Assembly (NCBI GenBank): GCA_905233285.1
Contig: CAJODY010000027.1
Span: forward strand, 1-38,201
Source of the DNA: an uncultured Bacteroidaceae bacterium
GTDB lineage: Bacteria > Bacteroidota > Bacteroidia > Bacteroidales > Bacteroidaceae
DNA length: 38,201 bases
Direction: 5' to 3'
In this document: positions 10,051 through 38,078 of the stretch, piece by piece
How positions within the stretch are numbered: position 1 is the stretch's first letter
Layout: each line of letters starts with the position of its first letter
Position numbers and translations under genes: made by a program
The notes under the pieces: model-generated
Told to the model about the DNA's origin: nothing
Database searches by the model: none
What the model saw: the letters and a program-made list of their open reading frames with translations, nothing else

Positions 10051-10094
10051 GCTAAACTCTAAACGGTAAACCGTAAGCGGTAAGCGGTAAACTA
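10051..10094. repeat. Heptamer array, GTTTACC family (six units)
   Basis: Six 7-nt units ending in AAAC or AAGC on the plus strand (for example GGTAAAC, CGTAAGC), 10051-10092. On the minus strand the edge reads TAGTTTACC, and its TAG (10094-10092) is the stop codon of the DUF1846 gene. Confidence 0.85.
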
Positions 10095-11573
10095 CTTATC
10101 CTGTATCTGTCTTTTCTTCTTCACAGGGTCGCAAGTCAGTCCGCATCCCAGCTTCTTGAAAATCCGGCGGTCCACCTCGCTCAGCATCACCGTGCTGTGT
10201 ACCTGACATCCGCGCAACTTAGGCAGTTGCATCAGCGCACGCTTGCAGTTCTCGTCGTGGTCTGAGAGCACAGAAATCGCCACCAGCACCTCGTCCGTGT
10301 GCAGTCGTGGATTGATTCCACCCAGATACTCCACCTTCGTCTTCTGTATCGGTTCAATCATGCTCTGCGGAATAAGATTTATCTCGTGGTCTATTCCGGC
10401 CAGATGCTTCGTCACGTTCAGCAGCAGAGCGGCACTGCACCCCAGCAGCGGACTCGAGTGGGCAGTTATGATAGTGCCGTCCTCCAGTTCCATGGCAGCC
10501 GACGTGTGACCCGACCGCTCCTTCGTCTCGTTGGCAGCAATCGTGGTCTTGCGGTCGTCAGTCGTTATCTTGGCTTGGTTAAACAGCAGCTTTATCTTGT
10601 TTATCTCCGAGTCGTTACACATACCCTCCACATACTTGTTCGTGGCATCGTAATAGCGGCGTATAATCTCGTCCTTCGATGCCTTGCAGCATACCTCATC
10701 GTCCGAGATGCAGAAACCCACCATGTTCACACCCATGTCCGTAGGCGACTTATACGGATTCTCACCGTATATACCTTCGAACAGCGCATTCAGCACAGGG
10801 AAAATCTCTATGTCGCGGTTATAGTTCACAGCCACCTTGCCGTAAGCCTCCAAGTGGAACGGGTCAATCATATTGACATCGTTCAGGTCGGCAGTGGCAG
10901 CCTCATATGCTATGTTCACAGGGTGCTTCAGCGGCAGGCTCCATACAGGGAACGTCTCAAACTTGGCATATCCGGCATGTATGCCGCGCTTGTTCTCGTT
11001 GTAGAGCTGACTCAGACACGTAGCCATCTTTCCGCTTCCGGGGCCCGGAGCCGTGATGATGACCAGCGGACGGGTAGTCTCCACATAGTCATTCTTGCCG
11101 AAGCCTTCGTCGCTGGCAATCTTAGCCACGTCATGCGGATAACCCTCAATCATATAGTGGTAATACGCCTTGATGCCCATGCGTCCCAGTCGCTGACGGA
11201 ACGCGTCGGCAGCCCTCTGTCCGTCATAATGCGTGATGACAACCGAGCCTACCATAAAACCGCGTCCCATGAACTCCTCCCTCAGTCTCAGCACATCCTC
11301 GTCATACGTGATGCCCAGGTCGGCACGTATCTTATTATTCTCAATGTCCTCCGCGCTGATGACAATCACAATCTCAATGCTGTCCTGAATCTGCTGGAAC
11401 ATGCGCAGCTTGCTGTCCGGCTTGAATCCCGGCAACACACGCGATGCGTGGTGGTCGTCAAACAGTTTTCCACCCAGTTCCAGGTACAACTTGCCGTTGA
11501 ATTGGGCAATTCTCTCCTTTATATGCTCCGACTGGATGCGAAGATACTTCTCGTTGTCAAATCCTATTCTCAT
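10092..11573 (-). CDS. DUF1846 (UPF0371) family protein
   Basis: A 493-residue cytoplasmic protein matching the UPF0371/DUF1846 family, whose function is not established. Recognisable parts: N-terminal IGFDNEKYLRIQSEHIKERI; a repeated nucleotide-binding-like fold with SAEDIENNKIRADLGITYDED (about 94-114); a Gly-rich loop ITAPGPGSGKMATCLSQLYNE (about 172-192) that resembles a phosphate-binding loop; and C-terminal LPQLRGC-like and GLTCDPVKKK elements. Length is typical. The promoter element TATATTTG lies at 11597-11604. The gene is convergent with the tRNA unit and its TAG stop is shared with a heptamer array. Confidence 0.9.
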   Translation of the reverse strand: MRIGFDNEKYLRIQSEHIKERIAQFNGKLYLELGGKLFDDHHASRVLPGFKPDSKLRMFQQIQDSIEIVIVISAEDIENNKIRADLGITYDEDVLRLREEFMGRGFMVGSVVITHYDGQRAADAFRQRLGRMGIKAYYHYMIEGYPHDVAKIASDEGFGKNDYVETTRPLVIITAPGPGSGKMATCLSQLYNENKRGIHAGYAKFETFPVWSLPLKHPVNIAYEAATADLNDVNMIDPFHLEAYGKVAVNYNRDIEIFPVLNALFEGIYGENPYKSPTDMGVNMVGFCISDDEVCCKASKDEIIRRYYDATNKYVEGMCNDSEINKIKLLFNQAKITTDDRKTTIAANETKERSGHTSAAMELEDGTIITAHSSPLLGCSAALLLNVTKHLAGIDHEINLIPQSMIEPIQKTKVEYLGGINPRLHTDEVLVAISVLSDHDENCKRALMQLPKLRGCQVHSTVMLSEVDRRIFKKLGCGLTCDPVKKKRQIQDK

Positions 11574-11596
11574 CTTTAATGTTTCTAAAATTTCTG

Positions 11597-11604
11597 CAAA
11601 TATA
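11597..11604 (-). promoter_or_regulatory. -7 element upstream of the DUF1846 gene
   Basis: TATATTTG on the minus strand, an exact TAnnTTTG match followed by CAG, 23 nt before the ATG at 11573. No clear -33 TTTG. Confidence 0.55.
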
Positions 11605-11649
11605 GTTACTTTTCCGCTTTTTCATTTCTTTCCTATTCTTTTTTTTCTC

Positions 11650-11657
11650 TACTTTTG
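11650..11657 (+). promoter_or_regulatory. -7 element upstream of the SIMPL gene
   Basis: TACTTTTG followed by CACCCG, an exact TAnnTTTG match 35 nt before the ATG at 11693. It is divergent from the DUF1846 promoter, 45 bp away. Confidence 0.6.
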
Positions 11658-11692
11658 CACCCGACACATCATTTTTCTTAAATACATCAACT

Positions 11693-12412
11693 ATGGAAAA
11701 GAAACAATTCATCCGCGAGTCTGCCATCATCGCAGCAGGCATCCTACTGGGACTCTTCACCCTTGGCATCAGCATCAAGGCAGCCATCGACCGCTTCACC
11801 GATAAAGACCGCCGCGTCACCGTCAAAGGTCTGGCCGAGAAGGAAGTCGATGCCGACAAGGTGACATGGCCCATCCAGACCAAAGAGATAGGCAACGACC
11901 TGCCTGCCCTCTACGCAAAGATAAACTCCACGACGGCAGTCATCAAGCGCTTCCTCACCTCCAACGGCATCAGCGAAGCTGAAATCAGCGTCAATGCCCC
12001 CACCGTCATCGACCTCAACGCCGAGCGCTACGGCGAGAACAACCGCAGCTACCGCTACAACATCACATCCACCATCATCGTCACCTCGCAGAACGTCAAA
12101 CTTGTGCGCTCCCTCATCAACCGTCAGGGCGAACTCCTCCCGCAGGGCATAGCCATCGTCGATGGCGGTTACGAAAACCCCATCAAATATGAGTTCGTTG
12201 CCTTCCGCGACATGAAACCCGAGATGATGACCGAAGCCATCCAGAACGCTGAGAAGACAGCCCAGCAGTTTGCCGAGAACTCCCACTCCAAACTCGATAA
12301 GATAGTCAATGCCGATCAGGGACAGTTCTCCATCGACAACCGCGATGAGAACACCCCTTATATTAAAAAGGTACGCGTAGTGACTACCGTCACCTATTCA
12401 CTTAAAGACTAA
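11693..12412 (+). CDS. SIMPL (DUF541) domain protein, membrane-anchored
   Basis: A 239-residue protein with one N-terminal hydrophobic helix (about 10-30, SAIIAAGILLGLFTLGISIK) that acts as an uncleaved anchor, followed by a periplasmic SIMPL domain. RRVTVKGLAEKEVDADKVTW is the usual opening strand of DUF541, and KKVRVVTTVTYSL the closing one. DUF541 proteins are exported and some are linked to oxidative stress or envelope integrity; the biochemical role is unclear. It is first in a plus-strand group with two M15 peptidases, separated from the next gene by a heptamer array. Confidence 0.9.
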   Translation: MEKKQFIRESAIIAAGILLGLFTLGISIKAAIDRFTDKDRRVTVKGLAEKEVDADKVTWPIQTKEIGNDLPALYAKINSTTAVIKRFLTSNGISEAEISVNAPTVIDLNAERYGENNRSYRYNITSTIIVTSQNVKLVRSLINRQGELLPQGIAIVDGGYENPIKYEFVAFRDMKPEMMTEAIQNAEKTAQQFAENSHSKLDKIVNADQGQFSIDNRDENTPYIKKVRVVTTVTYSLKD

Positions 12413-12415
12413 TTT

Positions 12416-12447
12416 AGTTTACAGTTTACCGCTTACCGTTTATTGTT
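12416..12447. repeat. Heptamer array, GTTTACC family
   Basis: Fills most of the 35-bp gap between the SIMPL stop and the next ATG. Units include AGTTTAC (twice), CGCTTAC and CGTTTAT, with the TTAGTTTAC edge next to the upstream stop. Confidence 0.8.
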
Positions 12448-13185
12448 ATGAGATATATTTCATTCCTTCTGCTTTCTGCAGTTCTGCTATTCGGGTGCAC
12501 CCGTCGTCCCGATGTGGTCCTGTCGCCTACCGACGACCATAGCCAGTTCGTAGTTCTCACCGACGTGGTGCCCGATGCCATCCTCGAAATCCGCTACTTC
12601 GGCACCTACAACTTCGTCGGAGCCCGCATCCGTGGCTACGAAGAACCCACAGCCCTGCTCACCCGCGTTGCAGCCGACAGCCTGAAAGCTGTCAGCGACG
12701 ACGTAAAAGCCCTGGGCTACCGCCTCAAAATCTACGATGCCTATCGTCCTCAGATGGCAGTTGACCACTTCGTCGAGTGGGCAAAAGACTTGGGCGACAC
12801 CATCATGAAACCCTACTTCTATCCCGACCTCAACAAAGACGTCCTCTTCCCACAGGAATACATATGCGAGCGCAGCGGTCACACCCGCGGTTCCACCCTC
12901 GACCTCACCCTCTTCGATATGCGCACAAAGAAAGAGCTCGATATGGGTGGCACCTTCGACTTCTTCGGCGAAGAGAGCCATCCCAACTACGGCGGCAATG
13001 CCGATGAAATGGAATATAAAGACAACGAACTCATCACCGAAGAGCAGTTCCAAAACCGCATGCTTCTACGTGCTGCCATGATGCGCCACGGCTTCAAACC
13101 CTTCTACACCGAATGGTGGCACTTCACCCTCGCCGACGAACCCTTCCCCGACACCTACTTCACCTTCCCTGTGAAACACTTTTAG
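12448..13185 (+). CDS. VanX/DdpX-type D-Ala-D-Ala dipeptidase, lipoprotein (M15D)
   Basis: A 245-residue zinc peptidase. The N-terminus MRYISFLLLSAVLLFGC ends in a lipobox (Cys17), so it is probably a periplasm-facing lipoprotein. The M15D signature is complete: SGHTRGSTLDLTL supplies zinc ligands H145 and D152, the family segment MGGTFDFFGEESH follows, and EWWHF supplies the catalytic E222 and ligand H225. These enzymes split D-Ala-D-Ala released from peptidoglycan precursors or turnover. With no vanHA ligase/dehydrogenase genes nearby, wall recycling is more likely than glycopeptide resistance. It is followed by another M15 enzyme. Confidence 0.93.
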   Translation: MRYISFLLLSAVLLFGCTRRPDVVLSPTDDHSQFVVLTDVVPDAILEIRYFGTYNFVGARIRGYEEPTALLTRVAADSLKAVSDDVKALGYRLKIYDAYRPQMAVDHFVEWAKDLGDTIMKPYFYPDLNKDVLFPQEYICERSGHTRGSTLDLTLFDMRTKKELDMGGTFDFFGEESHPNYGGNADEMEYKDNELITEEQFQNRMLLRAAMMRHGFKPFYTEWWHFTLADEPFPDTYFTFPVKHF

Positions 13186-13199: not shown

Positions 13200-13255
13200 C
13201 AGTAAGCGGTAAGCCGTAAGCCGTAAGCCGTAAGCGGTAAGCTATAACGGTAAAC
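13200..13255. repeat. Heptamer array, GTTTACC family (eight units)
   Basis: Eight 7-nt units in the gap between the two M15 peptidases: CAGTAAG, CGGTAAG, CCGTAAG three times, CGGTAAG, CTATAAC, GGTAAAC. The array ends 2 bp before the next ATG (13258), so the leader of that gene is made of repeat. Confidence 0.9.
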
Positions 13256-13257: not shown

Positions 13258-13980
13258 ATGCTATTCCTCCCCCTTATATTCCCCCTCCTAGCCTTTGCGC
13301 AGCCCGACTCCCTGTCCACTTCGCTTCGCGACCTGCGTACTTGGGCAGCCGGTACTACCGTCACGGCCGAAGCCGTCACAGCCTTTGGTGGAGAAGACAG
13401 TTGCTTCGTTGCCATGCCCATACCCGATGCCGTATGGCAGCGCATGCAGGGCAAGAGCTACCAACCCAACCCCCATATCTCCCGTTCCGACCTGCGCTAC
13501 CTCCGCTTGCTCCATACCGACTACGACCATAAGATACACCTGGGCGAGATGGTCTGCAACCGTCAGATAGCCGACCGTCTTCTTGATATCTTCCGTCAGC
13601 TTTACGAAGCAGGTTATCCCATCCAGCGCATCGTCCTGCCCGATGACTATGATGCCGATGACGAGCGTCAGATGCGAGCCAACAACACCTCCTGCTTCTG
13701 CTACCGCAGCGTATCCGGTTCGAAGAAACTCTCAGCCCATGCCCGCGGCATGGCCGTTGACCTCAACCCCTTTTATAATCCCTATTATATCGACCGCAAA
13801 GACGGCACCCGCTTCGTCCAGCCCGCTACGGCGCGGCAGTATTGCAACCGCAATAAACAGTTCCCATATAAGATAGACAAGAACGACCTGGCCTACCGGC
13901 TTTTTACCCGTCATGGCTTCGCCTGGGGCGGCTCATGGCGCACCTGCAAAGACTACCAGCATTTTCAGCTGAGGGAGTAG
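13258..13980 (+). CDS. M15-family zinc peptidase, exported
   Basis: A 240-residue protein with a very short signal peptide (MLFLPLIFPLLAFAQ, cleavage about residue 14). The C-terminal half is an M15 peptidase of the endolysin-like/VanY-like type: SAHARGMAVDLNP provides ligands H161 and D168, and DYQHF provides H235. Such enzymes cut peptidoglycan stem peptides. The residues before about 80 are not recognisable. The ATG lies directly after a heptamer array and there is no independent promoter, so it probably reads through from the upstream dipeptidase. The convergent DUF2851 gene ends 12 bp away. Confidence 0.9.
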   Translation: MLFLPLIFPLLAFAQPDSLSTSLRDLRTWAAGTTVTAEAVTAFGGEDSCFVAMPIPDAVWQRMQGKSYQPNPHISRSDLRYLRLLHTDYDHKIHLGEMVCNRQIADRLLDIFRQLYEAGYPIQRIVLPDDYDADDERQMRANNTSCFCYRSVSGSKKLSAHARGMAVDLNPFYNPYYIDRKDGTRFVQPATARQYCNRNKQFPYKIDKNDLAYRLFTRHGFAWGGSWRTCKDYQHFQLRE

Positions 13981-16431: not shown

Positions 16432-16459
16432 GTTGAAAGTTTAAGGTAAACGGTAACAT
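16432..16459. repeat. Short heptamer array after the DUF4294 gene
   Basis: Four degenerate 7-nt units: GTTGAAA, GTTTAAG, GTAAACG, GTAACAT. Directly followed by the hairpin segment 16458-16517. Confidence 0.6.
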
Positions 16460-16517
16460 TTTGGAGCAGCGAACGGAGAGTCAAGCTCGCTTGAACTATC
16501 CTGAGTCGTGACAAAAT
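16458..16517. repeat. 60-bp segment with terminal ATTTTG/CAAAAT and central hairpin, flanked by heptamer arrays
   Basis: It starts ATTTTG (16458-16463) and ends CAAAAT (16512-16517), an inverted pair. In the middle TCAAGC TC GCTTGA (16481-16494) is a perfect hairpin. Heptamer arrays lie on both sides. No ORF. Possibly a small mobile or structured element inserted in an array. Confidence 0.4.
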
Positions 16518-16525
16518 CGATCGAA

Positions 16526-16548
16526 GATAAACGGTAAACGGTAAACTA
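16526..16548. repeat. Heptamer array upstream of the RNA methyltransferase gene
   Basis: GATAAAC, GGTAAAC, GGTAAAC, then the edge that reads TTAGTTTACC on the minus strand. It ends 6 bp before the GTG start at 16555. Confidence 0.8.
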
Positions 16549-20310: not shown

Positions 20311-21696
20311 ATGAATTCACGTATCAAATCAATATCTGCTTTCTTAGGGATTCTCATGATGGTTTCGTGTGTGAAGAGTAACGAAACTGAAAGCAGCCCA
20401 TATTGTGGTATCATCTCGTTCGGAGTCAGCAATATCGTGAGTTATGTCCCGTATAAAACCAGCAGCGGAGAAACCGTGACTCAGAAGAAGACGGTGGATG
20501 GCAGCAACATACTTTTCGACATAAACCAGCAGGAAGGCACAATCAAGACTGCAAATCCGCTGCCGAACTGGATTAACCTTACGAAGGTGGTGCCTACATT
20601 CTCCTGCTACGGCACACTGGTCTATATCACCGGAGACTACATGCAAGTGGTAACCTCGGGAACCGATTCGCTCGACTTCACCGAGCCACACACCCTGCGC
20701 TGTATATCAACCGACGGACTGTATTGGAAAGATTACATCACTACGTTCGACAAGAATTCGGATGTGCAGGACACTATTGTATGGGAAAGCATGGCAAACA
20801 ACCTGAGCCTCGATGCCGATGAGCACAAGTCGCTGATGGTAAGTGCCATGTATAAGGATATTTATGGTGCCGACTCGCTGGTAAGACGTACCTTCGTGTT
20901 CTCGAACAACAGCAGCGGACAGCCACAGGTGACCAGTACGACGGAACGCAGTCAGGCCACCACATGGATGACTCCTACGGTGCTGAGCGGTGCTGACGGA
21001 ACCATTGACTTCAATTCGGTGATGGTACACAACGGCGAACTCTACGCACTGGACGACCAGAACAAACTGTACAAATCGACAGAAGCCGCAAAAGCCCTGA
21101 CATGGACGAAGGTGGCAAATACCAACCTCACACGTCTGTTGGCTTCAGACGGTGTGTATCTCTACGGTTACAACGGCACCAAGATTGTCTCGACCAAAGA
21201 CTACACAACATGGAACGAGGTAGGCGACCAGGCTCTAGACATGCTGCCTGAAACAGACATCTATAATTTCTATCACACTTCATACACGAACGACAAGATA
21301 ATCATCGTTATGATGGGTGGTATGACATCGAAAAACACCGGCAACGGTGTTACATGGTACAAGATTACCGACACAGTGGAGGAAGATGAAGACCCAGACC
21401 CATGGGACTATATGGCTGTCAGCAGCGAGAATGCTTACGGATGCCCTTACCTGCAGGAAGCAAGCACGATATGCCTCAACGACAAGCTGTACATGATGGG
21501 ACGTGGTACCGACGGCAAGTTTGCCGGTATGTACCGTTCGGAAGACAACGGCATTTCATGGCACTTGCAGAGCACAAAATGGAGACTGCCTGAGGCTCTC
21601 GACGGCAACAACGGTGCAGCCAGCATGGTGCTGGTGGGAAATGTGCTCTATGTGATGCAGAAGGGCGGAAAAGTGTGGAAGGGAACGATTAAGTAG
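20311..21696 (+). CDS. DUF6242-type lipoprotein with beta-propeller-like C-terminus
   Basis: A 461-residue lipoprotein: signal peptide with lipobox LMMVSC (Cys20). The N-terminal part (about 25-215) resembles DUF6242, seen in Bacteroidota next to uppS-bamA. The C-terminal part (about 220-461) has repeated short blades such as YALDDQNKLYKSTEAAKALTW, YLYGYNGTKIVSTKDYTTW, KFAGMYRSEDNGISWHL and LYVMQKGGKVWKGTI, typical of sialidase-like or Kelch-like propellers (the SxDxGxxW Asp-box form is visible in SEDNGISW). No enzymatic residues are assigned. Position at the head of the envelope cluster suggests a surface or outer-membrane role. Its TAG stop is part of a heptamer array. Confidence 0.85.
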   Translation: MNSRIKSISAFLGILMMVSCVKSNETESSPYCGIISFGVSNIVSYVPYKTSSGETVTQKKTVDGSNILFDINQQEGTIKTANPLPNWINLTKVVPTFSCYGTLVYITGDYMQVVTSGTDSLDFTEPHTLRCISTDGLYWKDYITTFDKNSDVQDTIVWESMANNLSLDADEHKSLMVSAMYKDIYGADSLVRRTFVFSNNSSGQPQVTSTTERSQATTWMTPTVLSGADGTIDFNSVMVHNGELYALDDQNKLYKSTEAAKALTWTKVANTNLTRLLASDGVYLYGYNGTKIVSTKDYTTWNEVGDQALDMLPETDIYNFYHTSYTNDKIIIVMMGGMTSKNTGNGVTWYKITDTVEEDEDPDPWDYMAVSSENAYGCPYLQEASTICLNDKLYMMGRGTDGKFAGMYRSEDNGISWHLQSTKWRLPEALDGNNGAASMVLVGNVLYVMQKGGKVWKGTIK

Positions 21697-21729
21697 TTTA
21701 CAGTTTACGGTTTAAGGTTTACGGTTTTA
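21694..21729. repeat. Heptamer array, GTTTACC family (five units)
   Basis: TAG (stop codon of the lipoprotein gene) followed by units AGTTTAC, AGTTTAC, GGTTTAA, GGTTTAC, GGTTTTA. It fills the gap to the DUF6089 gene. Confidence 0.88.
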
Positions 21730-27464: not shown

Positions 27465-28307
27465 ATGGCAGACACGAACACATCTATTTTATCTGGTCCC
27501 ATCGGCATTTTCGACTCGGGATTAGGTGGTCTGACCATACTCGAAGGCATACGTCGGCTGATGCCTCAGTACGACTATATCTACCTTGGCGACAACGCCC
27601 GTGCCCCATACGGCACCCGTTCGTTCGACGTCGTCTATCAGTTCACCCTACAAGCTGTTCAGAAACTCTTCGAGATGGGTTGCCCGCTCATCATCCTGGC
27701 TTGTAACACCGCTTCGGCAAAGGCTCTGCGCAGCATTCAGCAAAAATACCTTCCTACGCATGCTCCAAACCACCGCGTACTGGGAGTGATACGTCCTACG
27801 GCAGAGGTTGTAGGTACATTGACTCGTTCGCGCCACATCGGCATACTTGCTACTGAGGGTACAGTCCGTTCTGAATCATACAATTTGGAGATAAAGAAAC
27901 TTTATCCCGATACCACCGTCGTCGGACAAGCATGTCCCATGTGGGTTCCATTGGTTGAAAACAACGAATACGACCGTCCCGGAGCTGACTACTTCGTAAA
28001 GGACAGCATCGACCGACTCCTGTCTGCCGACCCACTCATCGACACCATCATCCTCGGTTGCACCCACTATCCGCTTCTGCTGCCTAAAATCAAGCAGTAC
28101 ATACCCTCCGGCATCACCATCATACCTCAGGGCAAATACATCGCAGAAAGTCTGGCAGACTACCTACACCGCCATACTGAAAAAGAGCAGCAGATAACCA
28201 AGGGCGGCACATGCCGGTACTACACAACCGAATCGAGCGAGAAATTCAGCGAATCAGCCTCCATCTTCCTCCACGAAGAAATCAAAGCAGAACATATCAC
28301 ATTGTAA
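27465..28307 (+). CDS. murI: Glutamate racemase
   Basis: A 280-residue cytoplasmic enzyme that converts L- to D-glutamate for peptidoglycan. It has the two-cysteine acid/base pair: C80 in ACNTASAKAL and C199 in GCTHYPLL. The start IGIFDSGLGGLTI carries the conserved D17 and S18. YLGDNARAPYG and the C-terminal region are typical. Length is normal. The order bamA-skp-skp-skp-murI links outer-membrane assembly with wall synthesis. A heptamer array separates it from the next gene. Confidence 0.97.
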   Translation: MADTNTSILSGPIGIFDSGLGGLTILEGIRRLMPQYDYIYLGDNARAPYGTRSFDVVYQFTLQAVQKLFEMGCPLIILACNTASAKALRSIQQKYLPTHAPNHRVLGVIRPTAEVVGTLTRSRHIGILATEGTVRSESYNLEIKKLYPDTTVVGQACPMWVPLVENNEYDRPGADYFVKDSIDRLLSADPLIDTIILGCTHYPLLLPKIKQYIPSGITIIPQGKYIAESLADYLHRHTEKEQQITKGGTCRYYTTESSEKFSESASIFLHEEIKAEHITL

Positions 28308-28311: not shown

Positions 28312-28335
28312 CTGTAAACCGTAAACTGTAAACTA
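28312..28335. repeat. Heptamer array, GTTTACC family, reverse orientation
   Basis: CTGTAAA, CCGTAAA, CTGTAAA, then CTA. On the minus strand the edge reads TAGTTTACAG. It fills the gap between murI and the first chromate-transporter gene, ending 3 bp before its ATG. Confidence 0.85.
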
Positions 28336-28338: not shown

Positions 28339-28881
28339 ATGTCCATCTACTCCGACCTTTTCCTTACATTCAGCAAGATAGGCTCCTTCACCCTTGGTGG
28401 CGGCTATGCCATGGTGCCTGTCATGGAGCGTGAGATAGTGGACAAGAAAGGATGGCTCAGTCAGGAGGAGTTTACCGACATACTTGTTGTGGCACAGTCC
28501 ACCCCCGGACTCTTCGCCATCGACATGGCATCCCACATCGGATATAAATACCGCGGAGTCGTCGGAGGCATCGTTGGAGCACTTGGAGTAGCCCTGCCGA
28601 GCATCGTCATCATACTGCTCATCGCACTCCTGTTCCAATCGTTCAAAGACAACATCTACGTTGAGAAGTTCTTCATGGGCATACGTCCCTGCGTCGTCGC
28701 CCTCATCCTCACTCCATGCTTCCGCATGGCTAAGTCGGCAAAGATTACAATCTACAACTGCTGGATACCCATCGTTTGTGCCTTGCTCATATCACTCTTC
28801 GGAGTCAGCCCCATCTGGTGCATCATCGTAGCAGGCATAGCGGGATTCATCTACGGAAAATACCTGACCATCAGACAATGA
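28339..28881 (+). CDS. Chromate-transporter family protein (CHR), first half-size subunit
   Basis: A 180-residue membrane protein of the short CHR type. It shows the family opening (F)SKIGSFTLGGGYAMVPVMERE, then WLSQEEFTDILVVAQSTPGLFAIDMA and several hydrophobic helices (about 75-100, 110-130, 135-175). Short CHR proteins work in pairs to form one ion transporter. Some export chromate, but the natural substrate in Bacteroidota is uncertain and could be sulfate or another anion. It overlaps the second half by 4 bp (ATGA). Confidence 0.92.
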   Translation: MSIYSDLFLTFSKIGSFTLGGGYAMVPVMEREIVDKKGWLSQEEFTDILVVAQSTPGLFAIDMASHIGYKYRGVVGGIVGALGVALPSIVIILLIALLFQSFKDNIYVEKFFMGIRPCVVALILTPCFRMAKSAKITIYNCWIPIVCALLISLFGVSPIWCIIVAGIAGFIYGKYLTIRQ

Positions 28882-29459
28882 TATTCCTTCAGCTATTCAT
28901 CACATTCTCAAAGATAGGCATCTTCAATTTCGGCGGTGGCTACGCGATGATTTCGCTCATTCAGGACGAAGTGGTCAACAAACACCATTGGCTCACAACT
29001 ACCGAATTCACCGATATAATCGCCATCAGTCAATCGACCCCCGGACCTATCGGCATCAACGCAGCCACCTACACAGGCTACACGGCTGTCATCAATGCCG
29101 GCTACCCCGAATGGGCTGCCATCCTCTCAGCCGTCATGACCTCGCTGAGCATCATGTGGCTTCCCTTCATTCTGATGATAAGCATAAGCAAATATCTCAT
29201 CCGTCATAAAGACTCCCTCGCCGTAGCCAACATATTCACAATGCTGCGCCCCACGGTACTCGGACTCATCCTGGCAGCAGCCATCATGCTGATGAACGTC
29301 GAGAACTTCGGCTCTCCTACCGACTCCACGTTCGAATTCATCGTCAGTTGCACCATCTTCATCCTCTCGTTCGTTCAAGGTACATCCTATCCTTATGATA
29401 TTGCTCTGCGGATTGGCAGGACTCATTATTTATTAACGATAACAGACACAACACAATGA
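28878..29459 (+). CDS. Chromate-transporter family protein (CHR), second half-size subunit
   Basis: 193 residues from the ATG at 28878, which overlaps the TGA of its partner. FSKIGIFNFGGGYAMISLIQDE and FTDIIAISQSTPGPIGINAATY are the second-half CHR motifs, followed by five or so membrane helices. The frame is open further upstream (to 28776), but that extension lies wholly inside the first subunit gene and is not supported. The paired, overlapping arrangement implies a heterodimer. Its stop overlaps the PfkB ATG in turn. Confidence 0.92.
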   Translation: MIFLQLFITFSKIGIFNFGGGYAMISLIQDEVVNKHHWLTTTEFTDIIAISQSTPGPIGINAATYTGYTAVINAGYPEWAAILSAVMTSLSIMWLPFILMISISKYLIRHKDSLAVANIFTMLRPTVLGLILAAAIMLMNVENFGSPTDSTFEFIVSCTIFILSFVQGTSYPYDIALRIGRTHYLLTITDTTQ

Positions 29460-30394
29460 GAAAAGTAATAGGAATAGGCGAAACCATTCTCGACATCATA
29501 TTCAAGGACGAACAACCCACAGCAGCCGTACCGGGTGGTTCGGTCTTCAACGGCATCATATCGTTGGGTCGCTTAGGATGCGACGTCACGATGATAACCG
29601 AAACCGGCAACGACCGCGTGGGACAGACCATCAAGCAGTTCATGTCCGACAACGGAGTGAACACTCGTCACATCTGTATGTACGAGGACGGACGCACAGC
29701 CATCTCACTTGCCTTCCTCAACGCTCGTAACGATGCCGAATACACATTCTACAAGGACTATCCCAAGGCACGTCTCGACGTCGAATGGCCCGAGATAAAC
29801 AAGGATGATATCGTCATGATGGGTTCCTACTTCGTGCTCAACCCTGCCTTACGTCCTAAAGTGAAGGAATTCCTCGACTATGCACGTCGTCAGCAGGCAT
29901 TCATCTACTACGACATCAACTTCCGTTCGTCCCATCTCGACGAGGCTGCTGAGCTCTATTCCACCATCATCGAGAACTTCGGCTATGCAGACATAGTTCG
30001 CGGTTCCACCGAGGATTTCCAGTACATGTTCGGCATCAACGACCCACTCGAAGCCTACAACCGTGAGGTTGCCCCTCATTGTCCTTATATGCTGTGTACC
30101 GATGCCGACGGCGATATCCGCCTCTTCACACCTCAGGGTAACAAAGAATATAAAGTACAGAAGATCCAGACCGTATCAACTATTGGAGCCGGCGACAACT
30201 TCAACGCAGGAATCGTCTTCGGACTCCTCCAATGTGGAATCCGTCGCGACGACCTCCCCTCAATGCTCAATAATCAATGGTCAACGGTCATTGGTCATGG
30301 TATAGCTCTCGCCAGCGAAGTTTGTCAAAGTATCCACAACTCAATAAGTAAGGACTTCGCCAAGCAATACATCCAAAAACTAAAAAACAATTAA
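29456..30394 (+). CDS. PfkB-family carbohydrate kinase
   Basis: A 312-residue ribokinase-type sugar kinase. The N-terminal glycine motif is IGIGETILDIIF, with PGGSVFNGIISLGRLG (substrate side); the C-terminal anion-hole motif is TIGAGDNFNAGIVFGLL with catalytic D247. The sugar is not predictable; the protein is close to fructokinase-like Bacteroidota enzymes. Residues about 269-282 (SMLNNQWSTVIGHG) are encoded by a 7-nt periodic array (30261-30299), which makes this loop unusual. It overlaps the CHR gene by 4 bp and is followed by the helicase after 1 bp. Confidence 0.93.
   Translation: MRKVIGIGETILDIIFKDEQPTAAVPGGSVFNGIISLGRLGCDVTMITETGNDRVGQTIKQFMSDNGVNTRHICMYEDGRTAISLAFLNARNDAEYTFYKDYPKARLDVEWPEINKDDIVMMGSYFVLNPALRPKVKEFLDYARRQQAFIYYDINFRSSHLDEAAELYSTIIENFGYADIVRGSTEDFQYMFGINDPLEAYNREVAPHCPYMLCTDADGDIRLFTPQGNKEYKVQKIQTVSTIGAGDNFNAGIVFGLLQCGIRRDDLPSMLNNQWSTVIGHGIALASEVCQSIHNSISKDFAKQYIQKLKNN
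30261..30299. repeat. Heptamer array inside the PfkB gene, CAATGGT family
   Basis: Five 7-nt units (CAATGCT, CAATAAT, CAATGGT, CAACGGT, CATTGGT) and a partial sixth (CATGG). It is entirely in coding sequence and keeps the frame open. Confidence 0.75.
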
Positions 30395-31723
30395 TTTGAA
30401 AACATTCGAACAACTCGGTATCTCATCACCGATACTTCAAGCCATCAGCGAGATAGGCTTTGAAAGTCCCATGTAATCCCCTACCTACTCGGAAACGACA
30501 ACGACGTCATAGCACTTGCACAGACAGGTACAGGCAAGACAGCAGCTTACGGACTACCACTTATCCAGAAGACCGACAGCACATCGCTCATCACACAGTC
30601 CATCGTCATTGCCCCCACACGCGAACTCTGCCTACAGATTACCGACGACCTCAAGAGCTACAGCAAATACATCCCCGGACTCCGCATTCTGGCAGTCTAT
30701 GGCGGAGCACAGATAATGCCGCAGATACATAGTCTGAAGAAAGGTGTTCAGATTATCGTAGCCACACCCGGACGACTCGTTGACCTCATGGAACGTGGGG
30801 TTGCCGACCTCTCAAATGTCAGGAATGTTGTACTCGACGAAGCCGACGAGATGCTCAACATGGGGTTCTCCGAAAGCATCGATGCCATCCTGGCACGCTG
30901 TCCGTCCCACAACTCACGCAATACACTCCTCTTCTCCGCCACCATGTCGAAGGAGATTGAACGCATTGCTCACAACTACCTCCACGACCACAAAGAGATT
31001 GTCGTAGGTAGCCGCAACGAAGGAGCCGAACACGTCAACCACTTCTACTACCTCGTAGCAGCACGCGACAAATACAATGCCCTGAAACGCATTGCCGACT
31101 ACTACCCCGAGATATACGCCATCATCTTCTGCCGCACACGCATGGAGACACAGGAAATAGCCGACCGCCTCATTCAGGACGGCTACAACGCCGAGGCACT
31201 TCATGGCGACCTCTCACAGATGCAACGCGACATCACTATGCAGAAGTTTCGTCAACACCGCACCCAGCTCCTCGTAGCTACCGACGTGGCGGCACGCGGA
31301 CTCGACGTCGAGGAACTCACCCACGTCATCAATTACGGACTGCCTGACGATATCGAGTCCTATACCCACCGCTCCGGACGTACAGGTCGTGCCGGACGCA
31401 AGGGTACCAGCATCTCCATCATCCATATCAAGGAGAAACATAAGATTCAGGCCATCGAACGCCAGATTCAGAAGAAATTCATCCCCAGCATTCTGCCTAC
31501 CGGACAGGAGATATGTGCCAAGCAACTCTACAAACTCATCGATGACATCGAGAAAATAGAAGTCGATGAAAAGGAAATCAAGCAGTACCTGCCCGAGATA
31601 TACCGCAAACTCGACATGCTCGACAAGGAAGACCTCATCAAGCGTATGGTCAGTATGCAGTTCAATACCTTCCTCAACTACTACAAGAACGCACCCGAAA
31701 TCGAGCAGCCAAGCAGCAAGGAG

Positions 31724-31842
31724 AAGAAGGCTGAAGGAAGAGGTAAGAAGGTGGATGGAAGACGACAGAGGGAAGAAGGCAGAGGTCGGAAGGATGACGG
31801 CAGATGGCAGAAGGCTAATGGCAGAGGTCGGAAGTCAGAAGA
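31724..31842. repeat. Heptamer array inside the helicase gene, CAGAAGG family (17 units)
   Basis: Seventeen consecutive purine-rich 7-nt units such as AAGAAGG, CTGAAGG, CAGAGGT, CAGATGG, CTAATGG, CGGAAGT. Because three units make 21 nt, the protein gains a seven-residue repeat of form KxxGRxx, five to six copies. Confidence 0.9.
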
Positions 31843-31857
31843 AAGGAAGAAATCTAA

Positions 31858-31885
31858 ACCCTCAGCTTTCAACTCTCAACAATCA
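31858..31885. repeat. Heptamer array inside the helicase gene, CTCAACT family (four units)
   Basis: ACCCTCA, GCTTTCA, ACTCTCA, ACAATCA, 16 bp downstream of the CAGAAGG array and still in coding sequence (encodes PSAFNSQQS). Confidence 0.75.
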
Positions 31886-31993
31886 AAGGCTCCCAAAGGT
31901 GCGAAGGAATGGGCAAAATACTTCGAAGGTCAGGTCGAGTCCCAACCTTTCTACAACGAATTTGCAAAGAAGAAAGGAAAGAAAAAGAGGAAA

Positions 31994-32043
31994 TAGTTTA
32001 CAGTTTACTGTTTACCGTTTACCGTTAAGGTTAACATTAACGT
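31994..32043. repeat. Heptamer array, GTTTACC family, between convergent genes
   Basis: TAG (helicase stop) is followed by AGTTTAC twice, TGTTTAC, CGTTTAC, then decaying units to the stop codon of the convergent methyltransferase gene (32045-32043). The whole 46-bp gap is repeat. Confidence 0.88.
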
Positions 32044-33393: not shown

Positions 33394-33477
33394 AAAATCC
33401 CACGGGGAATAATAAAAATCCCCTAGGGATTTTTTAAAATCGCTAAGGGATTAATAAAAATCGCGAGGGGATTTTTT
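33394..33477. repeat. Tandem array of four 21-bp units with palindromic core
   Basis: Unit starts at 33394, 33415, 33436 and 33457. Each starts AAAATC, has G at positions 12-14 and ends in an A/T run. Tails alternate: units 1 and 3 end in ATA, units 2 and 4 in TTTTTT, so a 42-bp super-unit is repeated twice. In unit 2 AAAATCCC and GGGATTTT are exact reverse complements around CTA. It lies in the 260-bp gap between the methyltransferase promoter and the DUF2264 stop. The rest of that gap shows only an orphan plus-strand TACTTTTG (33346-33353). Confidence 0.85.
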
Positions 33478-34899: not shown

Positions 34900-35505
34900 T
34901 TAGTTGTCTCTATAGAATGCTGATGCCATATTGGCTGTATTGGCCATGAGGACGAGGCTGTCCTCTGTGAGCATCATGATTTGGAAGGTATCGACGTCGG
35001 CTGGTTTTTCGTCGCCCACCTTACGTGGGGATGAGAGCAGGAGCACTCCGTCGCGTACGGCCCAATGGTCGTACTCTATGCTCATGTTGTAGGTTGTGGC
35101 ACGTCCGTTGCTGTCGATTTCCAGACTTTTCGTCTCGCCACCTCCCACATGCTGCGACCAAAGGTGCTGAAGAGCGGTGAGGTTGACGGCGGTCTGTGCC
35201 ACGAGGTTACCATCGATGAGACTGTATATCACATCTACTTCGTTACCGACGATGAGTCCTCCCATAATCATCTGGTTGGCTGCGATGATGTCGAGTGTGT
35301 CGCCATCGAACTCGATGAGTTGCAGAAGGTTCATAGACGAACCATCGCCAATGATGCCGCGTGTCTCTACGAAATCGGGGATTTTCTCAACAGTAACCAC
35401 CTTGGCGGGAGCCTTTGCCTGTTGGGGTTGCTTGCCCTTACATGCCGCAAGGCAGCTGAGCAGGGCGATACATATTATATATATATAGGATTTATGATTT
35501 ACCAT
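34900..35505 (-). CDS. Lipocalin-like lipoprotein of unknown function
   Basis: A 201-residue lipoprotein. Lipobox LAAC (Cys22) after the hydrophobic stretch YIYIICIALLSCL. The mature part begins with a Lys/Gln/Ala linker, then strands such as RGIIGDGSSMNLLQLIEFDGD, ATTYNMSIEYDHWAVRDGVLLL and DTFQIMMLTEDSLVLMA, which resemble the lipocalin-like lipoproteins common in Bacteroidota. Ligand unknown. The start codon (35505-35503) lies inside a heptamer array, so the first residues MVNHKS are repeat-encoded. Co-transcribed with the DUF2264 gene downstream. Confidence 0.8.
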   Translation of the reverse strand: MVNHKSYIYIICIALLSCLAACKGKQPQQAKAPAKVVTVEKIPDFVETRGIIGDGSSMNLLQLIEFDGDTLDIIAANQMIMGGLIVGNEVDVIYSLIDGNLVAQTAVNLTALQHLWSQHVGGGETKSLEIDSNGRATTYNMSIEYDHWAVRDGVLLLSSPRKVGDEKPADVDTFQIMMLTEDSLVLMANTANMASAFYRDN

Positions 35506-35530
35506 GTACGATGTACAATTGTGGGTTTAG
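35489..35530. repeat. Heptamer array over the lipoprotein start codon, TACATGG family
   Basis: Six 7-nt units: GATTTAT, GATTTAC, CATGTAC, GATGTAC, AATTGTG, GGTTTAG. The CAT in the third unit is the reverse of the ATG start. Related to the korA-upstream array. Confidence 0.7.
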
Positions 35531-35532
35531 TC

Positions 35533-35582
35533 AAAAAAAACACATTGGATAACTCGCAAGGAGTTTCTCCAACGTGTTTTTT
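35533..35582 (-). terminator. Terminator of the HU gene with stacked double hairpin
   Basis: On the minus strand AAAACACGTTGGA pairs with TCCAATGTGTTTT (one G-U) and is followed by T. Inside the loop AACTC/GAGTT forms a second stem. The G-U pair would be an A-C mismatch on the other strand, so it works best for HU. Confidence 0.88.
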
Positions 35583-35599
35583 GCTTTCATTGGAAAGGA

Positions 35600-35872
35600 T
35601 TAGTTGATAGCCTTGTCGATGTCAGCGCCTGCCTTGAACTTAGCAACCTTCTTAGCAGCGATCTTGATAGCCTGCTTTGTAGCTGGGTTGATACCCTGGC
35701 GTGCAGCACGCTTAGAAACAGAGAATGTACCAAAACCAACGAGTGCAACCTTGTCACCAGCCTTAAGTGCGCCAACGATAGCGTCGATAGTAGCATCAAG
35801 AGCCTTCTTAGAAGCTTCCTTGCTCAGGCCGCTCTTAGCAGCGATAGAGCTTACGAGTTCACTTTTATTCAT
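35600..35872 (-). CDS. HU-family DNA-binding protein
   Basis: A 90-residue histone-like protein that bends and compacts DNA. It starts MNKSELVSSIAAKSGLSKEA, has GFGTFSVSKRAARQGINPAT with the conserved beta-arm residues RxxRxGxNPxT (DNA-minor-groove Pro at about 63), and the C-terminal helix FKAGADIDKAIN. Length is exact for HU. It has its own promoter (35949-35979) and terminator (35533-35582), so it is monocistronic and probably strongly expressed. Confidence 0.98.
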   Translation of the reverse strand: MNKSELVSSIAAKSGLSKEASKKALDATIDAIVGALKAGDKVALVGFGTFSVSKRAARQGINPATKQAIKIAAKKVAKFKAGADIDKAIN

Positions 35873-35948
35873 AAAAATTAGAATTAAAATGAGGTTAATA
35901 AATGAGGTTAATTAAAAAGTAATTGTGTTTATTACGTTTTTCGCAACG

Positions 35949-35979
35949 CAAATATATGGCATTCAGAGGTTAATGCAAA
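35949..35979 (-). promoter_or_regulatory. Promoter of the HU gene
   Basis: On the minus strand TTTG (35979-35976), 19 nt, TATATTTG (35956-35949): a perfect -33/-7 pair. The ATG lies 77 nt downstream after an AT-rich leader. Confidence 0.8.
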
Positions 35980-36060
35980 TAAAATTCGAAAAAAAATTAA
36001 TATTTTTCAAAAAAAAAGTGCAAATCTGGATTTTTTGCCCCGTATTTGGTCTAAAATGCG

Positions 36061-36068
36061 TAATTTTG
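36061..36068 (+). promoter_or_regulatory. -7 element upstream of the rhomboid gene
   Basis: TAATTTTG followed by CAGCG, an exact TAnnTTTG match 27 nt before the ATG at 36096. A TTTTTTG lies 23 nt upstream (36031-36037). Confidence 0.6.
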
Positions 36069-36095
36069 CAGCGTTTTTAATACATTTACATAAAG

Positions 36096-36890
36096 ATGCC
36101 ACCAGTAGTAAAATCGTTGCTGTTACTCAACGTCGTTGCTTATATACTCGACTCTGCATTTCACCTCTCCCCGCTGTTTGCATTGTATTATTGGGAGTCG
36201 AATGCGTTCATGCCGTTTCAGTTTGTAACCTACATGTTCATGCACGGCAACTTCACACACATTTTCTTCAATATGTTCGCCCTGTGGATGTTCGGACGAA
36301 TAATGGAGCAGGTGTGGGGCGGTCAGCGTTTCCTCATATATTATATGGTATGTGGCATCGGTGCAGGACTAGTGCAGGAGTTGGGACAGGTAGCCGGAAT
36401 TATCTCTCCTTACGCCATGACGATTGGTGCCTCGGGTGCCGTATATGGCATTTTGCTTGCTTTCGGTATGACATTCCCTAACGAGCGTCTGTTCATCATC
36501 CCTATTCCCTTCCCCATCAAAGCCAAGTGGTTTGTGTTGCTGTATGCTGCAATAGAGATACTGGAAGGTATGAGTGCCTCGGACGGGGTGGCACACTTCG
36601 CCCATCTCGGTGGTATGTTCTTCGGACTTATGCTCATCCTGTTCTGGCGCAATGCTGCTCGTTACAAGAGTGTCAGTTTCGGAAAGAATTTCTGGCACAA
36701 GCCCGACTCGCAGCCATCAATGCATGTCAGCTATAATGACAACTACACGAAGGATTACGAGTATAACTCGCGAAAGAAGGCAAGGAACGACGAGATTGAC
36801 CGCATACTCGACAAGGTGCGCAAAGGTGGGTATCAGTGTCTGACGGAAAGCGAGAAGCAGACTCTTTTCGATGCAAGCAACAGACAATAA
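36096..36890 (+). CDS. Rhomboid-family intramembrane serine protease
   Basis: A 264-residue inner-membrane protease with about six helices. The catalytic pair is S113 in GASGAVYG and H170 in HFAHLGG, with the oxyanion-side residues H50 (MHGNFTHIFFN) and N59. The loop-1 motif WMFGRIMEQVWG (WR-like) is present. After the last helix (about 190) a basic cytoplasmic tail of about 75 residues (KARNDEIDRILDKVRKGGYQCL) remains. That tail resembles the C-terminal extension of Bacteroidota rhomboids. Substrates unknown. The next gene starts 15 bp later. Confidence 0.95.
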   Translation: MPPVVKSLLLLNVVAYILDSAFHLSPLFALYYWESNAFMPFQFVTYMFMHGNFTHIFFNMFALWMFGRIMEQVWGGQRFLIYYMVCGIGAGLVQELGQVAGIISPYAMTIGASGAVYGILLAFGMTFPNERLFIIPIPFPIKAKWFVLLYAAIEILEGMSASDGVAHFAHLGGMFFGLMLILFWRNAARYKSVSFGKNFWHKPDSQPSMHVSYNDNYTKDYEYNSRKKARNDEIDRILDKVRKGGYQCLTESEKQTLFDASNRQ

Positions 36891-36905
36891 AAACAGCAGG
36901 GCACG

Positions 36906-37979
36906 ATGATCAAAGGACTGAAACGGACAGTACAAGGATTTTTCGTTGCTATAAACCTGATTGTGGTTATGGCAATGATTTTTTGTGCCTTTTCGTATCG
37001 TCTGAACAGCGCTGAATACCCGGAATGTTCGTATTGGGGCATGATATTCCCTGTATTCCTGCTCCTTTCGTTCGTATTTATCGTGTTCTGGCTGGTGTTC
37101 AAACGCCGTTTCATGCTAATCAGCATTATCGGTATGCTGATATGTACTGATGCCATCCGTACGTTCTGTCCCGTAAACCTGCCGTCGAGTGCCCCGGAAG
37201 GAGCCATTAAGGTACTCAGTTACAACGTGATGAGTTTTCCCGACAAGGATAAGGTGGAATGGGAAGACAACATCGTGCTTGATTACGTGAGAAGGAGCAA
37301 TGCCGACATCGTATGTCTGCAGGAAGCCGGAGGTATTCCCTATGATGTGCTGCACCAGCTGTGCGATTCTACCTATCCGTATATTACTGTTGATACGATT
37401 ATACCGAAACTCCACCTTATGTTCATGTCGAAATACCCCATCGTGAGCATAGAACGTATCAATTACGAGTCGTGTGCGAACGGCAGCATTGCCTATAAGA
37501 TAGTGAAAGATGAGGACACTATACTGGTGGTGAACAACCATATGGAGTCGTACAAGTTGGCGAAAAAAGACAAGGACGACTACGAAACGATGATAAAGAA
37601 TCCAGAGGATGAGGAGAACGAAATGCGCTACGATTCGCTAGTCAGCAAACTGAAAAGTGCGAATCAAATCAGAGCCGTACAAGCCGATTCCATCGCGCAA
37701 TTCATAGCTAAATCGGAGTGTAAGTACGTAATCTGCGCAGGCGATTTTAACGCTCCAAGCCTGTCGTACACCCACTACCGGCTGACCCGTCTGCTCAACG
37801 ACGCATATACACGTTCAGGATGTGGATTGGGATTCAGTTATAACCAGTCGGGCATGTTCTTCCGCATAGACAATATCCTGATGTCGGAGAACATGAAGGC
37901 TTATGGCGCCAAGGTTGACGATTACAGCAAGATGAGCGACCACTATCCCATTTATGCATGGCTCGAATTGCTGCATTAA
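36906..37979 (+). CDS. Membrane-anchored endonuclease/exonuclease/phosphatase (EEP) protein
   Basis: 357 residues: three N-terminal hydrophobic helices (about 10-30, 43-63, 70-88), then an EEP domain. Metal and catalytic motifs: LSYNVMSF (Asn), ADIVCLQEAG (Glu), NNHMES, CAGDFNAP (Asp, Asn), and C-terminal MSDHYPIYAWLEL (Asp-His). The fold is shared by DNase I-like nucleases and phosphatases. Membrane anchoring suggests a periplasmic or cytoplasm-facing phosphodiesterase, but the substrate is unknown. In Bacteroidota this gene commonly follows rhomboid genes. No clear terminator is visible after it. Confidence 0.9.
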   Translation: MIKGLKRTVQGFFVAINLIVVMAMIFCAFSYRLNSAEYPECSYWGMIFPVFLLLSFVFIVFWLVFKRRFMLISIIGMLICTDAIRTFCPVNLPSSAPEGAIKVLSYNVMSFPDKDKVEWEDNIVLDYVRRSNADIVCLQEAGGIPYDVLHQLCDSTYPYITVDTIIPKLHLMFMSKYPIVSIERINYESCANGSIAYKIVKDEDTILVVNNHMESYKLAKKDKDDYETMIKNPEDEENEMRYDSLVSKLKSANQIRAVQADSIAQFIAKSECKYVICAGDFNAPSLSYTHYRLTRLLNDAYTRSGCGLGFSYNQSGMFFRIDNILMSENMKAYGAKVDDYSKMSDHYPIYAWLELLH

Positions 37980-38050
37980 GTCACCCAAAACGTTGCCGGA
38001 CGTATATAAACGGGGAGAAAAGACGGCTTTTTGCCTCTTAATTACACATT

Positions 38051-38078
38051 TTTTACTTTTCACTTTTCTCGTTTCACT
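38051..38078. repeat. Heptamer array, TTTCACT family, upstream of secDF
   Basis: TTTTACT, TTTCACT, TTTCTCG, TTTCACT, with a decayed fifth unit. It ends 9 bp before the secDF -7 element and occupies the -33 region. Confidence 0.7.

Follow-up and report, generated by a model that had tools for sequence, protein, structure and literature searches.

A 7-nt step throughout the genome and its relatives

Contig CAJODY010000027.1 of an uncultured Bacteroidaceae bacterium (GenBank assembly GCA_905233285.1), whose 38,201 nt we refer to as the window, carries short tandem arrays that differ in their repeat unit and agree in a period of 7 nt. What process would write so many different words at one spacing, and what governs where they stand? 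A sequence-only reading of the window had listed 14 such array sites and proposed a common generating mechanism rather than chance or a single mobile element. We found that the arrays step by 7 nt throughout the genome, come and go and exchange their units between relatives at the same junctions, abut stop codons and often share their register, and run in frame through the genes of several enzymes. Our preferred explanation, which we hold at roughly even confidence, is that they are heptameric simple sequence repeats that are laid down in blocks, remodelled by slippage, and kept where they are harmless.

The window is contig 27 of the source genome (G000), a 2.55 Mb draft of 110 contigs and 89.9% completeness. 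The closest relative found (G001) has a DUF1846 protein with 97% identity to that of G000, while further neighbours are mostly Prevotella-like genomes, many of them rumen-derived. All comparisons were made between species, rather than between strains of one species, in draft genomes and with a home-made gene caller; most rest on the one closest relative, with simulations and E. coli providing the chance levels. Periodicity was scored as self-match at lag 7, with +1 for each match and -2 for each mismatch. An unselected G000 sample comprised the first 20 kb of contigs 1 to 20 (400 kb, with spacers making up 14% of the bases). A larger G000 sample comprised 834 kb. Twenty G000 and 23 G001 stretches were picked for GTTTAC matches, which raises base rates but is not by itself a source of the junction association described below.

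In the 400 kb sample, 23 segments scored at least 11 at lag 7, compared with 0, 4, 14, 10, and 18 at lags 5, 6, 8, 9, and 14, respectively, and lag 7 ranked first whichever of four thresholds was applied. In the 834 kb sample, spacers held 69 lag-7 segments, against means of 0.15 to 0.95 and a maximum of 3 in Markov simulations of order 2, 4, and 6 (20 simulations each). Intergenic counts at lags 7, 8, 9, 5, and 10 were 74, 21, 10, 0, and 1 in G000 and 114, 24, 8, 0, and 1 in G001, whereas four E. coli stretches totalling 200 kb yielded no lag-7 segment and no more than one for any lag in the range 2 to 15. The excess over random expectation and the enrichment between genes, on which the sequence-only reading had staked its proposal, were both borne out. 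Of the 23 unselected segments, 18 were intergenic (as were 74 of 90 in all G000 stretches and 114 of 156 in the G001 stretches), but arrays are not confined to spacers, and three of the listed sites, at 30259, 31724, and 31858, lie inside genes.

The signal extends to other genomes and fades with distance. The two-unit GTTTAC pattern GTTTACNGTTTAC has 112 matches in G000, compared with 3 for the reversed pattern, and is also frequent in G001 (114) and G008 (49); 17 of the 24 congeners searched have no match. Congeners nonetheless show the 7-nt period with other units, as the sequence-only reading had suspected of other Bacteroidales. Sixteen stretches of other congeners (292 kb) gave 24 segments at lag 7 versus 8, 9, and 4 at lags 8, 6, and 9, although four stretches of the closest relatives (73 kb) gave only 3, not above lags 8 (3) and 22 (4). 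At scores of at least 13, lags 7, 8, and 9 gave 34, 21, and 15 segments in 54 named loci (mostly Prevotella-like, one from G001) and 8, 0, and 3 in 26 loci of other Bacteroidales, while 20 stretches of other families gave only 2 at lag 7 and 3 at lag 14. Different units with one leading period, in G000 and in other Bacteroidales and even inside genes, support the proposed common process with a 7-nt step. Among IMG/VR viral contigs (L367-L493), which may include host contamination, three successive GTTTACN units occurred in 47 stretches (18 for the reversed control) and three successive TCAACTN units in at least 120.

Arrays of the window

Within the window, 10 lag-7 segments scored at least 9 where 0.18 were expected, and 8 scored at least 11 where 0.02 were expected (40 third-order Markov simulations). 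Ten of the 14 listed sites pass this test. The other four fail as 7-nt arrays: 16432 is a lone one to two units, 17138 reaches a Tandem Repeats Finder score of 31 with 68% matches, 31724 fits best as a coding repeat of 21 or 42 nt in the tail of a helicase, and 31858 holds about three units. The sole match in an Rfam search of the window was the tRNA at 9933-10004. The features, apart from a hairpin element and its flanking array that are taken up later, are as follows.

10051-10092: GTAAACN/GTAAGCN array, lag-7 score 17 (segment 10052), between the tRNA gene at 9933-10004 and the end of the DUF1846 gene
10092-11573, minus strand: DUF1846 gene, whose stop TAG starts the array (TAG followed by TTTACC)
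12413-12447: GTTTACN array (segment 12416), filling the spacer between the end of a SIMPL-domain gene at 12412 and the start of a peptidase M15 gene at 12448
13202-13242: GTAAGCC/GTAAGCG array, lag-7 score 28, between the peptidase M15 genes 12448-13185 and 13258-13980
21695-21727: GTTTACN array (segment 21695), adjoining the DUF6242 gene end at 21696 (TAG followed by TTTACAG)
28312-28334: GTAAACN array (segment 28314), in the 31-nt spacer between the plus-strand genes 27465-28307 and 28339-28881
30259-30301, plus strand: TCAATGG-type array, in frame within the PfkB carbohydrate kinase gene 29456-30394
31725-31834, plus strand: coding repeat of 21 nt that also has a weak 7-nt pattern, near the 3' end of the DEAD-box helicase gene (30716-31996), in the part for the C-terminal tail
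31995-32026: GTTTACN array, lag-7 score 19, adjoining the helicase gene end (TAG followed by TTTACAG)
35489-35516: weak GATTTAT/GATGTAC array, lag-7 score 9, overlapping the start of the minus-strand gene 34900-35505
38050-38079: TTTTCAC array, lag-7 score 10 and Tandem Repeats Finder score 39, downstream of the gene 36906-37979

Comparison with relatives showed that these arrays vary in presence and in wording. Between matched flanks of the 10051-10092 array, G008 and G043 have no array, and the G001 ortholog has the stop context TAA followed by ATAGCTTACAG. This pair shows that an array can supply the stop, as G001 has TAA and then ATAGCTTAC, and G000 has TAG right before TTTACC. The 12413-12447 array belongs to the same family in G001 with different seventh bases, the one at 13202-13242 is absent from G001, and the G001 counterpart of 31995-32026 reads TAG and then CTTACGGCTTAC. 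In the congeners G057 and G006, two adjacent arrays (AGTTTAG type and TAATTCC type) stand upstream of the DUF1846 gene (L097:9422-9529 and L100:10965-11077), where the window has none.

Many junctions keep their arrays while the units change

We then compared gene junctions between G000 and G001. Orthologs in the G001 stretches were found for 177 of 507 G000 junctions, with arrays in both genomes at 17, in G000 only at 6, in G001 only at 17, and in neither at 137. G001 carried an array at 17 of the 23 junctions with a G000 array, compared with 17 of the 154 without one (Fisher p = 6e-10, with p < 0.05 in each of four array-holding spacer-length classes). The consensus units of the 17 pairs, on the same strand, differ at 1 to 4 of 7 positions (mean 2.06 versus 2.51 in permuted pairs, p ~0.02), with GTTTACN standing opposite CATTGAC, TTAACTT, AAGTTAA, or GGTTAAT. 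Place and period outlast the unit word at orthologous junctions.

Three junctions bear the marks of local birth or growth at a stop codon. At L081:9575, the gene end AGAAGTAA is single in G000 and present in about four copies in G001; there is one extra unit at the stop at L126:16323 and a TAATTGA seed at L113:12918. At L149:10330 and L105:9841, arrays of common families face a sister with nothing comparable. For the 23 arrays absent from the sister, the best unit match in the sister junction had no mismatch in 5, one in 11, and at least two in 7, counts that carry no null and include some junctions shorter than 10 nt.

The arrays also keep close to stop codons. At co-directional junctions, the median distance from stop to array was 5 nt in G000 (65 arrays) and 3.5 nt in G001 (98 arrays), compared with 21 and 23 nt under random placement, while the medians from array to start were 12 and 35.5 nt, unlike the TAACTGA-type placement just upstream of starts. 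Among arrays within 5 nt of a stop, the stop itself kept the repeat register in 14 of 36 (G000), 30 of 58 (G001), and 11 of 23 (117 other loci), where chance would give 1 in 64 and the null was set at 1 in 16. G000 and G001 share TAG followed by TTTAC as their most frequent stop context (9 of 617 and 7 of 603 genes, respectively), and the final codons of some genes consist of repeat.

Unit families and their variation

The 834 kb of G000 hold 102 arrays of all families at a score of at least 10, of which 20 lie mainly within called genes. GTTTACN accounts for 57 of the 102, most units having at most one mismatch to the hexamer. Of the 231 units in these 57 arrays, 231 have G at position 1, 230 have T at position 3, and 231 have A at position 5; position 2 varies among T, C, and G, and the seventh base takes all four letters almost at random (A81 G55 C50 T45). 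In G001, GTTTACN is matched by 45 of 167 arrays, alongside many of the TCAAYTN, AAGTTAN, and TTGACC types (types overlap in this count). The sequence-only reading had called the units unrelated, and this did not wholly hold: GTT/AAC occurs in 48 of 73 G000 units and 61 of 113 G001 units, versus 19 and 25 in letter shuffles, and units at orthologous junctions are slightly closer than permuted ones.

Within arrays, 88 of 155 variants fell on one phase where 60 were expected. We considered whether a constant hexamer with a free base is a special feature of single arrays and rejected it; the excess is real, but a slippage simulation yields the same, with observed phase concentrations of 0.57, 0.53, and 0.53 against 0.52 to 0.59 simulated (mutation rates 0.02 and 0.01, slippage with block duplication). 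The fixed core with a free seventh base stands as a pattern across arrays only.

Arrays in frame within genes

Arrays lying 30 nt or more inside called genes numbered 12 in the sample from G000 and 33 in that from G001 (mean lengths 31.5 and 36.8 nt), and the same search at lags 4, 5, 8, 10, 11, and 13 returned 0 to 3 each. For intragenic arrays of at least 35 nt, identity at lag 7 exceeded that at lag 21 (0.847 versus 0.804 for 3 G000 arrays and 0.900 versus 0.852 for 10 G001 arrays), which makes it improbable that they began as coding duplications of 21 nt. The encoded peptides include NSQLSTL, VNGQWSM, and ELGVRSE types.

Several of these arrays lie in conserved enzymes. A G000 epimerase has two; an alignment of 16 orthologs places both in loops of variable length, and 11 of the 16 lack the second insert. 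The isoleucyl-tRNA synthetase of G001 carries a net insert of 19 residues (the SLNSQLSTLNTQLSTLNSQLST region) before the conserved YxLxWTTTPWTLPSN segment; this insert is absent from 8c8w, the single solved relative compared. The TCAATGG array of the PfkB gene is also present in G001, while the same segment is non-repetitive and of equal length in the six other congeners compared. The DEAD-box helicase ends in a repeat-coded basic tail in G000 and G001 where G008, G043, and G016 encode a further domain (loci compared: L329, L330, and L333); in G043 this domain is Pfam DbpA (E = 4.5e-21), and a Pfam search of the G000 tail segment gave no match. Comparison of sister genes in eight rows (six loci) gave gap differences of 0, 3, 3, 3, 18, 18, 21, and 36 nt, all multiples of 3, with only 21 and 0 also multiples of 7. 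Repeat DNA that enters conserved enzymes in frame would be a source of new loops and tails, and possibly of domain loss.

Other arrays lie near called gene starts, where they would encode part of signal-peptide-like segments (e.g., CLLFAVYCLFNNAAYAQ):

L036:1622-1653: start-proximal array
L107:14309-14338: start-proximal array
L111:6774-6820: start-proximal array
L141:6630-6652: start-proximal array

How the arrays may arise

If the arrays are block-laid and slippage-remodelled heptamers, new ones would arrive as multi-unit blocks of tolerated net length, because growth unit by unit in conserved genes such as that for isoleucyl-tRNA synthetase would pass through +7 and +14 frameshifts. Slipped-strand gain and loss of units would then remodel them. 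Some arrays probably begin locally, when a heptamer overlapping the stop codon is duplicated, a step that would be silent because the first copy still terminates the gene. Families found at many loci would owe their spread to ectopic copies of existing arrays that slipped heavily while being made; such copying from array to array is the simplest idea for how one family reached dozens of loci. In free spacers, both block laying and local heptamer duplication could operate. Position would be governed by tolerance, with arrays kept behind stops, between genes, and in loops and tails, and a regulatory role is not needed.

Several results weigh against this explanation. Three near-invariant positions with a near-random seventh base across the 57 G000 arrays are not predicted by neutral turnover unless inherited. 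The variants within arrays avoid the stop triplet, contrary to a purely neutral view unless this too is inherited: counting variant types in arrays with one stop per unit, 12 of 120 fell on it in G000 (51 expected) and 25 of 122 in G001 (52 expected). Nor did we see direct traces of copying. Shared strings of seventh bases between GTTTACN loci numbered 54 pairs versus 54.6 when shuffled, and 27 versus 23.0; neighbouring arrays did not significantly share units (91 and 264 of 1000 permutations reached the observed value); and breakpoints of gene order were not enriched in arrays (4 of 28 broken versus 23 of 164 conserved junctions, and 8 of 24 versus 40 of 161). Likewise, 18 of the 23 sister-absent arrays belong to families with at least four relatives in their own genome, which is no enrichment given common-family shares of 0.78 and 0.87 among all arrays. 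Finally, the few long G000 arrays within genes have a higher identity at lag 14 (0.883) than at lag 7. Since slippage in copying could erase the strings, the negative copying results weaken copying without excluding it.

The alternative that survives best is pure local slippage, in which the DNA polymerase slips in increments near 7 nt, with 8 and 9 as a tail, arrays grow from chance seeds, and selection against frameshifts confines them to spacers. It accounts for the single step-size peak at 7 in the spacers of G000 and G001, with fewer steps of 8 and 9 and hardly any of 5 and 10, for the three clear local seeds at stop codons, and for variation within arrays that fits the slippage simulation. 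It does not readily explain one unit family at dozens of loci, such as GTTTACN in more than half of the G000 arrays, and 7-nt arrays in conserved enzymes would require frameshifted intermediates. Moreover, spacer lengths in the 17 orthologous pairs differ by a multiple of 7 in just 3 and are equal in 1. We regard pure slippage as possible, if on the unlikely side.

A more speculative idea is an active DNA-writing process, in which a stretch of about six bases is recopied in one burst, with one loose base per cycle, from a cell-wide template and pasted or filled into many sites, open reading frames included. The constant GnTTAC core and almost random seventh base of the 57 G000 arrays would fit such copying. 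If each lineage had a template of its own, the same site would carry different words in different species. We consider such a process unlikely; if it exists, housekeeping enzymes would gain peptides from it, such as NSQLSTL and VNGQWSM.

Selection, mobility, and artefact

Under a selected function, the arrays would be sites or spacers, such as stops in three frames behind genes, binding sites spaced by 7 nt, or signals for transcription or translation. Recurrence at the same junctions and the stop-triplet avoidance in G000 and G001 speak for this, as does the stop content of the units: in three samples, the unit has a stop codon on one strand or both in 73 of 74, 111 of 114, and 56 of 61 arrays, where random 7-mers would give 52 to 59% and shuffling the letters of the units 78 to 85%. 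Stops in the sense orientation only also exceeded those in the antisense only (36:15 and 47:23). However, the excess is weak in the third sample, where 27 of 500 letter shuffles reach it, and variants at other loci show no clear avoidance of the stop triplet (14 of 44, with 19 expected, p = 0.17). Variants that do fall within the triplet seldom preserve a stop (0 of 12, 7 of 25, and 6 of 14 in G000, G001, and other loci), and TAG is depleted in G001 units. Beyond 5 nt from the stop, G001 has no strand preference (5:5 and 6:7), though G000 shows one (10:2 at 6-40 nt and 6:3 beyond). Relative to transcription, GTTTACN occurs in both orientations (11 sense and 25 antisense in G000, 12 and 10 in G001), and the unit changes freely at one and the same junction. 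The outcome for stop-codon selection is mixed, with composition and variant position in G000 and G001 in favor and the tests on retained stops, TAG, and the third sample not, and we judge a selected function to be quite improbable.

The window also suggested a mobile carrier, in the form of a dispersed hairpin bracketed by heptamer units:

16448-16533: dispersed imperfect-hairpin element, GGAGCAGCGA..TCAAGC-GCTTGA..GAGTCGTGAC
16528-16546: GTAAACG array (segment 16528), at the right end of the hairpin element

This element, about 55 to 85 nt long, has 10 matches in G000 and 8 in G001, and 42 among the matches listed, in 15 of 45 genus genomes including G000 (L161-L190). Its bracketing units are genome-specific, with GTAAACN in most G000 and G001 copies compared, RTTGACA in G056, and GAATTAG/GAATGAG-like units in G010, which speaks for movement of the arrays by the hairpin element itself or by a repetitive extragenic palindromic (REP) element with its transposase (RAYT) or an IS200-type system. 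Against this, G000 has 10 hairpins for 112 two-unit GTTTAC matches, hairpins without flanking arrays occur in several congeners, and the hairpin with its flanks folds no better than shuffles; we rejected it as the driver on the grounds of copy number and folding. A link to REP/RAYT or IS200/IS605 was rejected likewise because the Y1 transposase domain does not track array load, being above cut-off in 14 of 45 genomes, including G000 but not the equally GTTTAC-rich G001. Nor do the arrays resemble REP elements or miniature inverted-repeat transposable elements, as they are direct repeats, although the element at 16448-16533 resembles a hairpin and inverted pairs of arrays occur. These surveys support the earlier statement that no single mobile element is responsible, and we regard transport by such an element as very improbable. 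For the set as a whole, chance or an assembly artefact has a negligible probability, even though G000 and the closely compared congeners are many-contig drafts, as Markov expectations are near zero, the 200 kb of E. coli has no such arrays, and orthologous arrays occur in separately assembled genomes.

Known heptameric repeats

The sequence-only reading knew of no named element, yet a related kind is on record. Heptanucleotide repeats of Calothrix are known as short tandemly repeated repetitive (STRR) sequences, with about 100 copies per genome, and degenerate STRR units have been described. The STRR sequences of heterocystous cyanobacteria share with the present arrays tandem 7-nt units, more than one family per genome, many loci, and a mainly intergenic location. 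The arrays may differ in that their units are degenerate, change between close relatives at the same junction, and occur in frame inside genes. In place of few and nearly constant units per genome, G000 has 29 and G001 41 distinct canonical consensus units that are degenerate within arrays. We take this degenerate multi-unit content as a variant of the STRR or heptameric kind.

Two papers place this kind in cyanobacteria, Beggiatoaceae, a few Bacteroidetes, and Xanthomonas (PMC4679880, PMC4692102), and the latter gives three heptanucleotide families in one Calothrix genome. TAACTGA repeats occur in Beggiatoaceae, some cyanobacteria, and five Bacteroidetes (MacGregor 2015, PMC4679880). They too are intergenic heptamers that provide stops in three frames on one strand, with some overlapping the upstream stop; however, theirs is one exact unit, direct repeats of single-base variants are rare, and those of the BOGUAY genome lie mostly just upstream of starts, whereas the present units are variable and lie at stops. 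Rehm 2015 (PMC4692102) describes GGGAATC in Xanthomonas and GGGGA(C/T)T in Nostoc, mostly intergenic, much nearer the upstream gene, and near or over its stop. As here, the Xanthomonas repeats occupy shared sites with variable length and sequence, but both sets are G-rich and quadruplex-forming (PMC4692102), whereas the present families are several and AT-rich, with no runs of three or more G in the common ones and a few single units (AACCCTT, AATCGGG) as exceptions. In-frame insertion is shared with the Rickettsia palindromic elements (Ogata 2000, as described in PMC10969869), which enter unrelated protein genes in several families; those are palindromic and about 150 bp long, while ours are short direct arrays. 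Among the titles and abstract openings listed by our literature searches, none pointed to arrays of this type in Prevotella-like Bacteroidales, apart from the five Bacteroidetes of PMC4679880.

The arrays belong to the heptameric kind and are distinct in their many degenerate families, the exchange of units at fixed sites, and the in-frame copies in enzymes. PMC4679880 refers to Mrazek 2007 for the observation that heptamers are the most abundant of long units, and credits to it the idea of polymerase contact, which PMC4692102 also takes up from its reference 33; a guess of this type is how the 7-nt excess in scattered bacteria has so far been explained in these papers. These mostly uncultured gut and rumen bacteria offer a multi-family process whose births, losses, and exchanges can be read at orthologous sites, which makes its origin testable. 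Arrays proposed as regulatory elsewhere may simply mark sites where repeat DNA is tolerated.

Other repeats

Inverted pairs of 8-nt or 7-nt arrays were observed round cores of roughly 40 to 190 nt, and some of the cores recur within a genome (G006, G016):

L032:4843/5062: inverted array pair
L042:899/1088: inverted array pair
L081:15666/15815: inverted array pair
L100:2169/2242: inverted array pair
L100:3341/3415: inverted array pair
L095:11464/11529: inverted array pair

At L199 (G053), hairpins of GGATAATCAAGGGGTCTGACCCTTTGATTATCC type that are unrelated to the heptamers lie near a Y1-transposase-like gene, in a REP/RAYT-like arrangement. Degenerate tandem repeats with a period of 21 to 22 nt occur in the window at 33394-33473 and at L041:210, L044:220, L047:16162, and L049:3471, and have a palindromic centre (AAAATCCC..GGGATT, TTCTAAGCGCTTAGAA).

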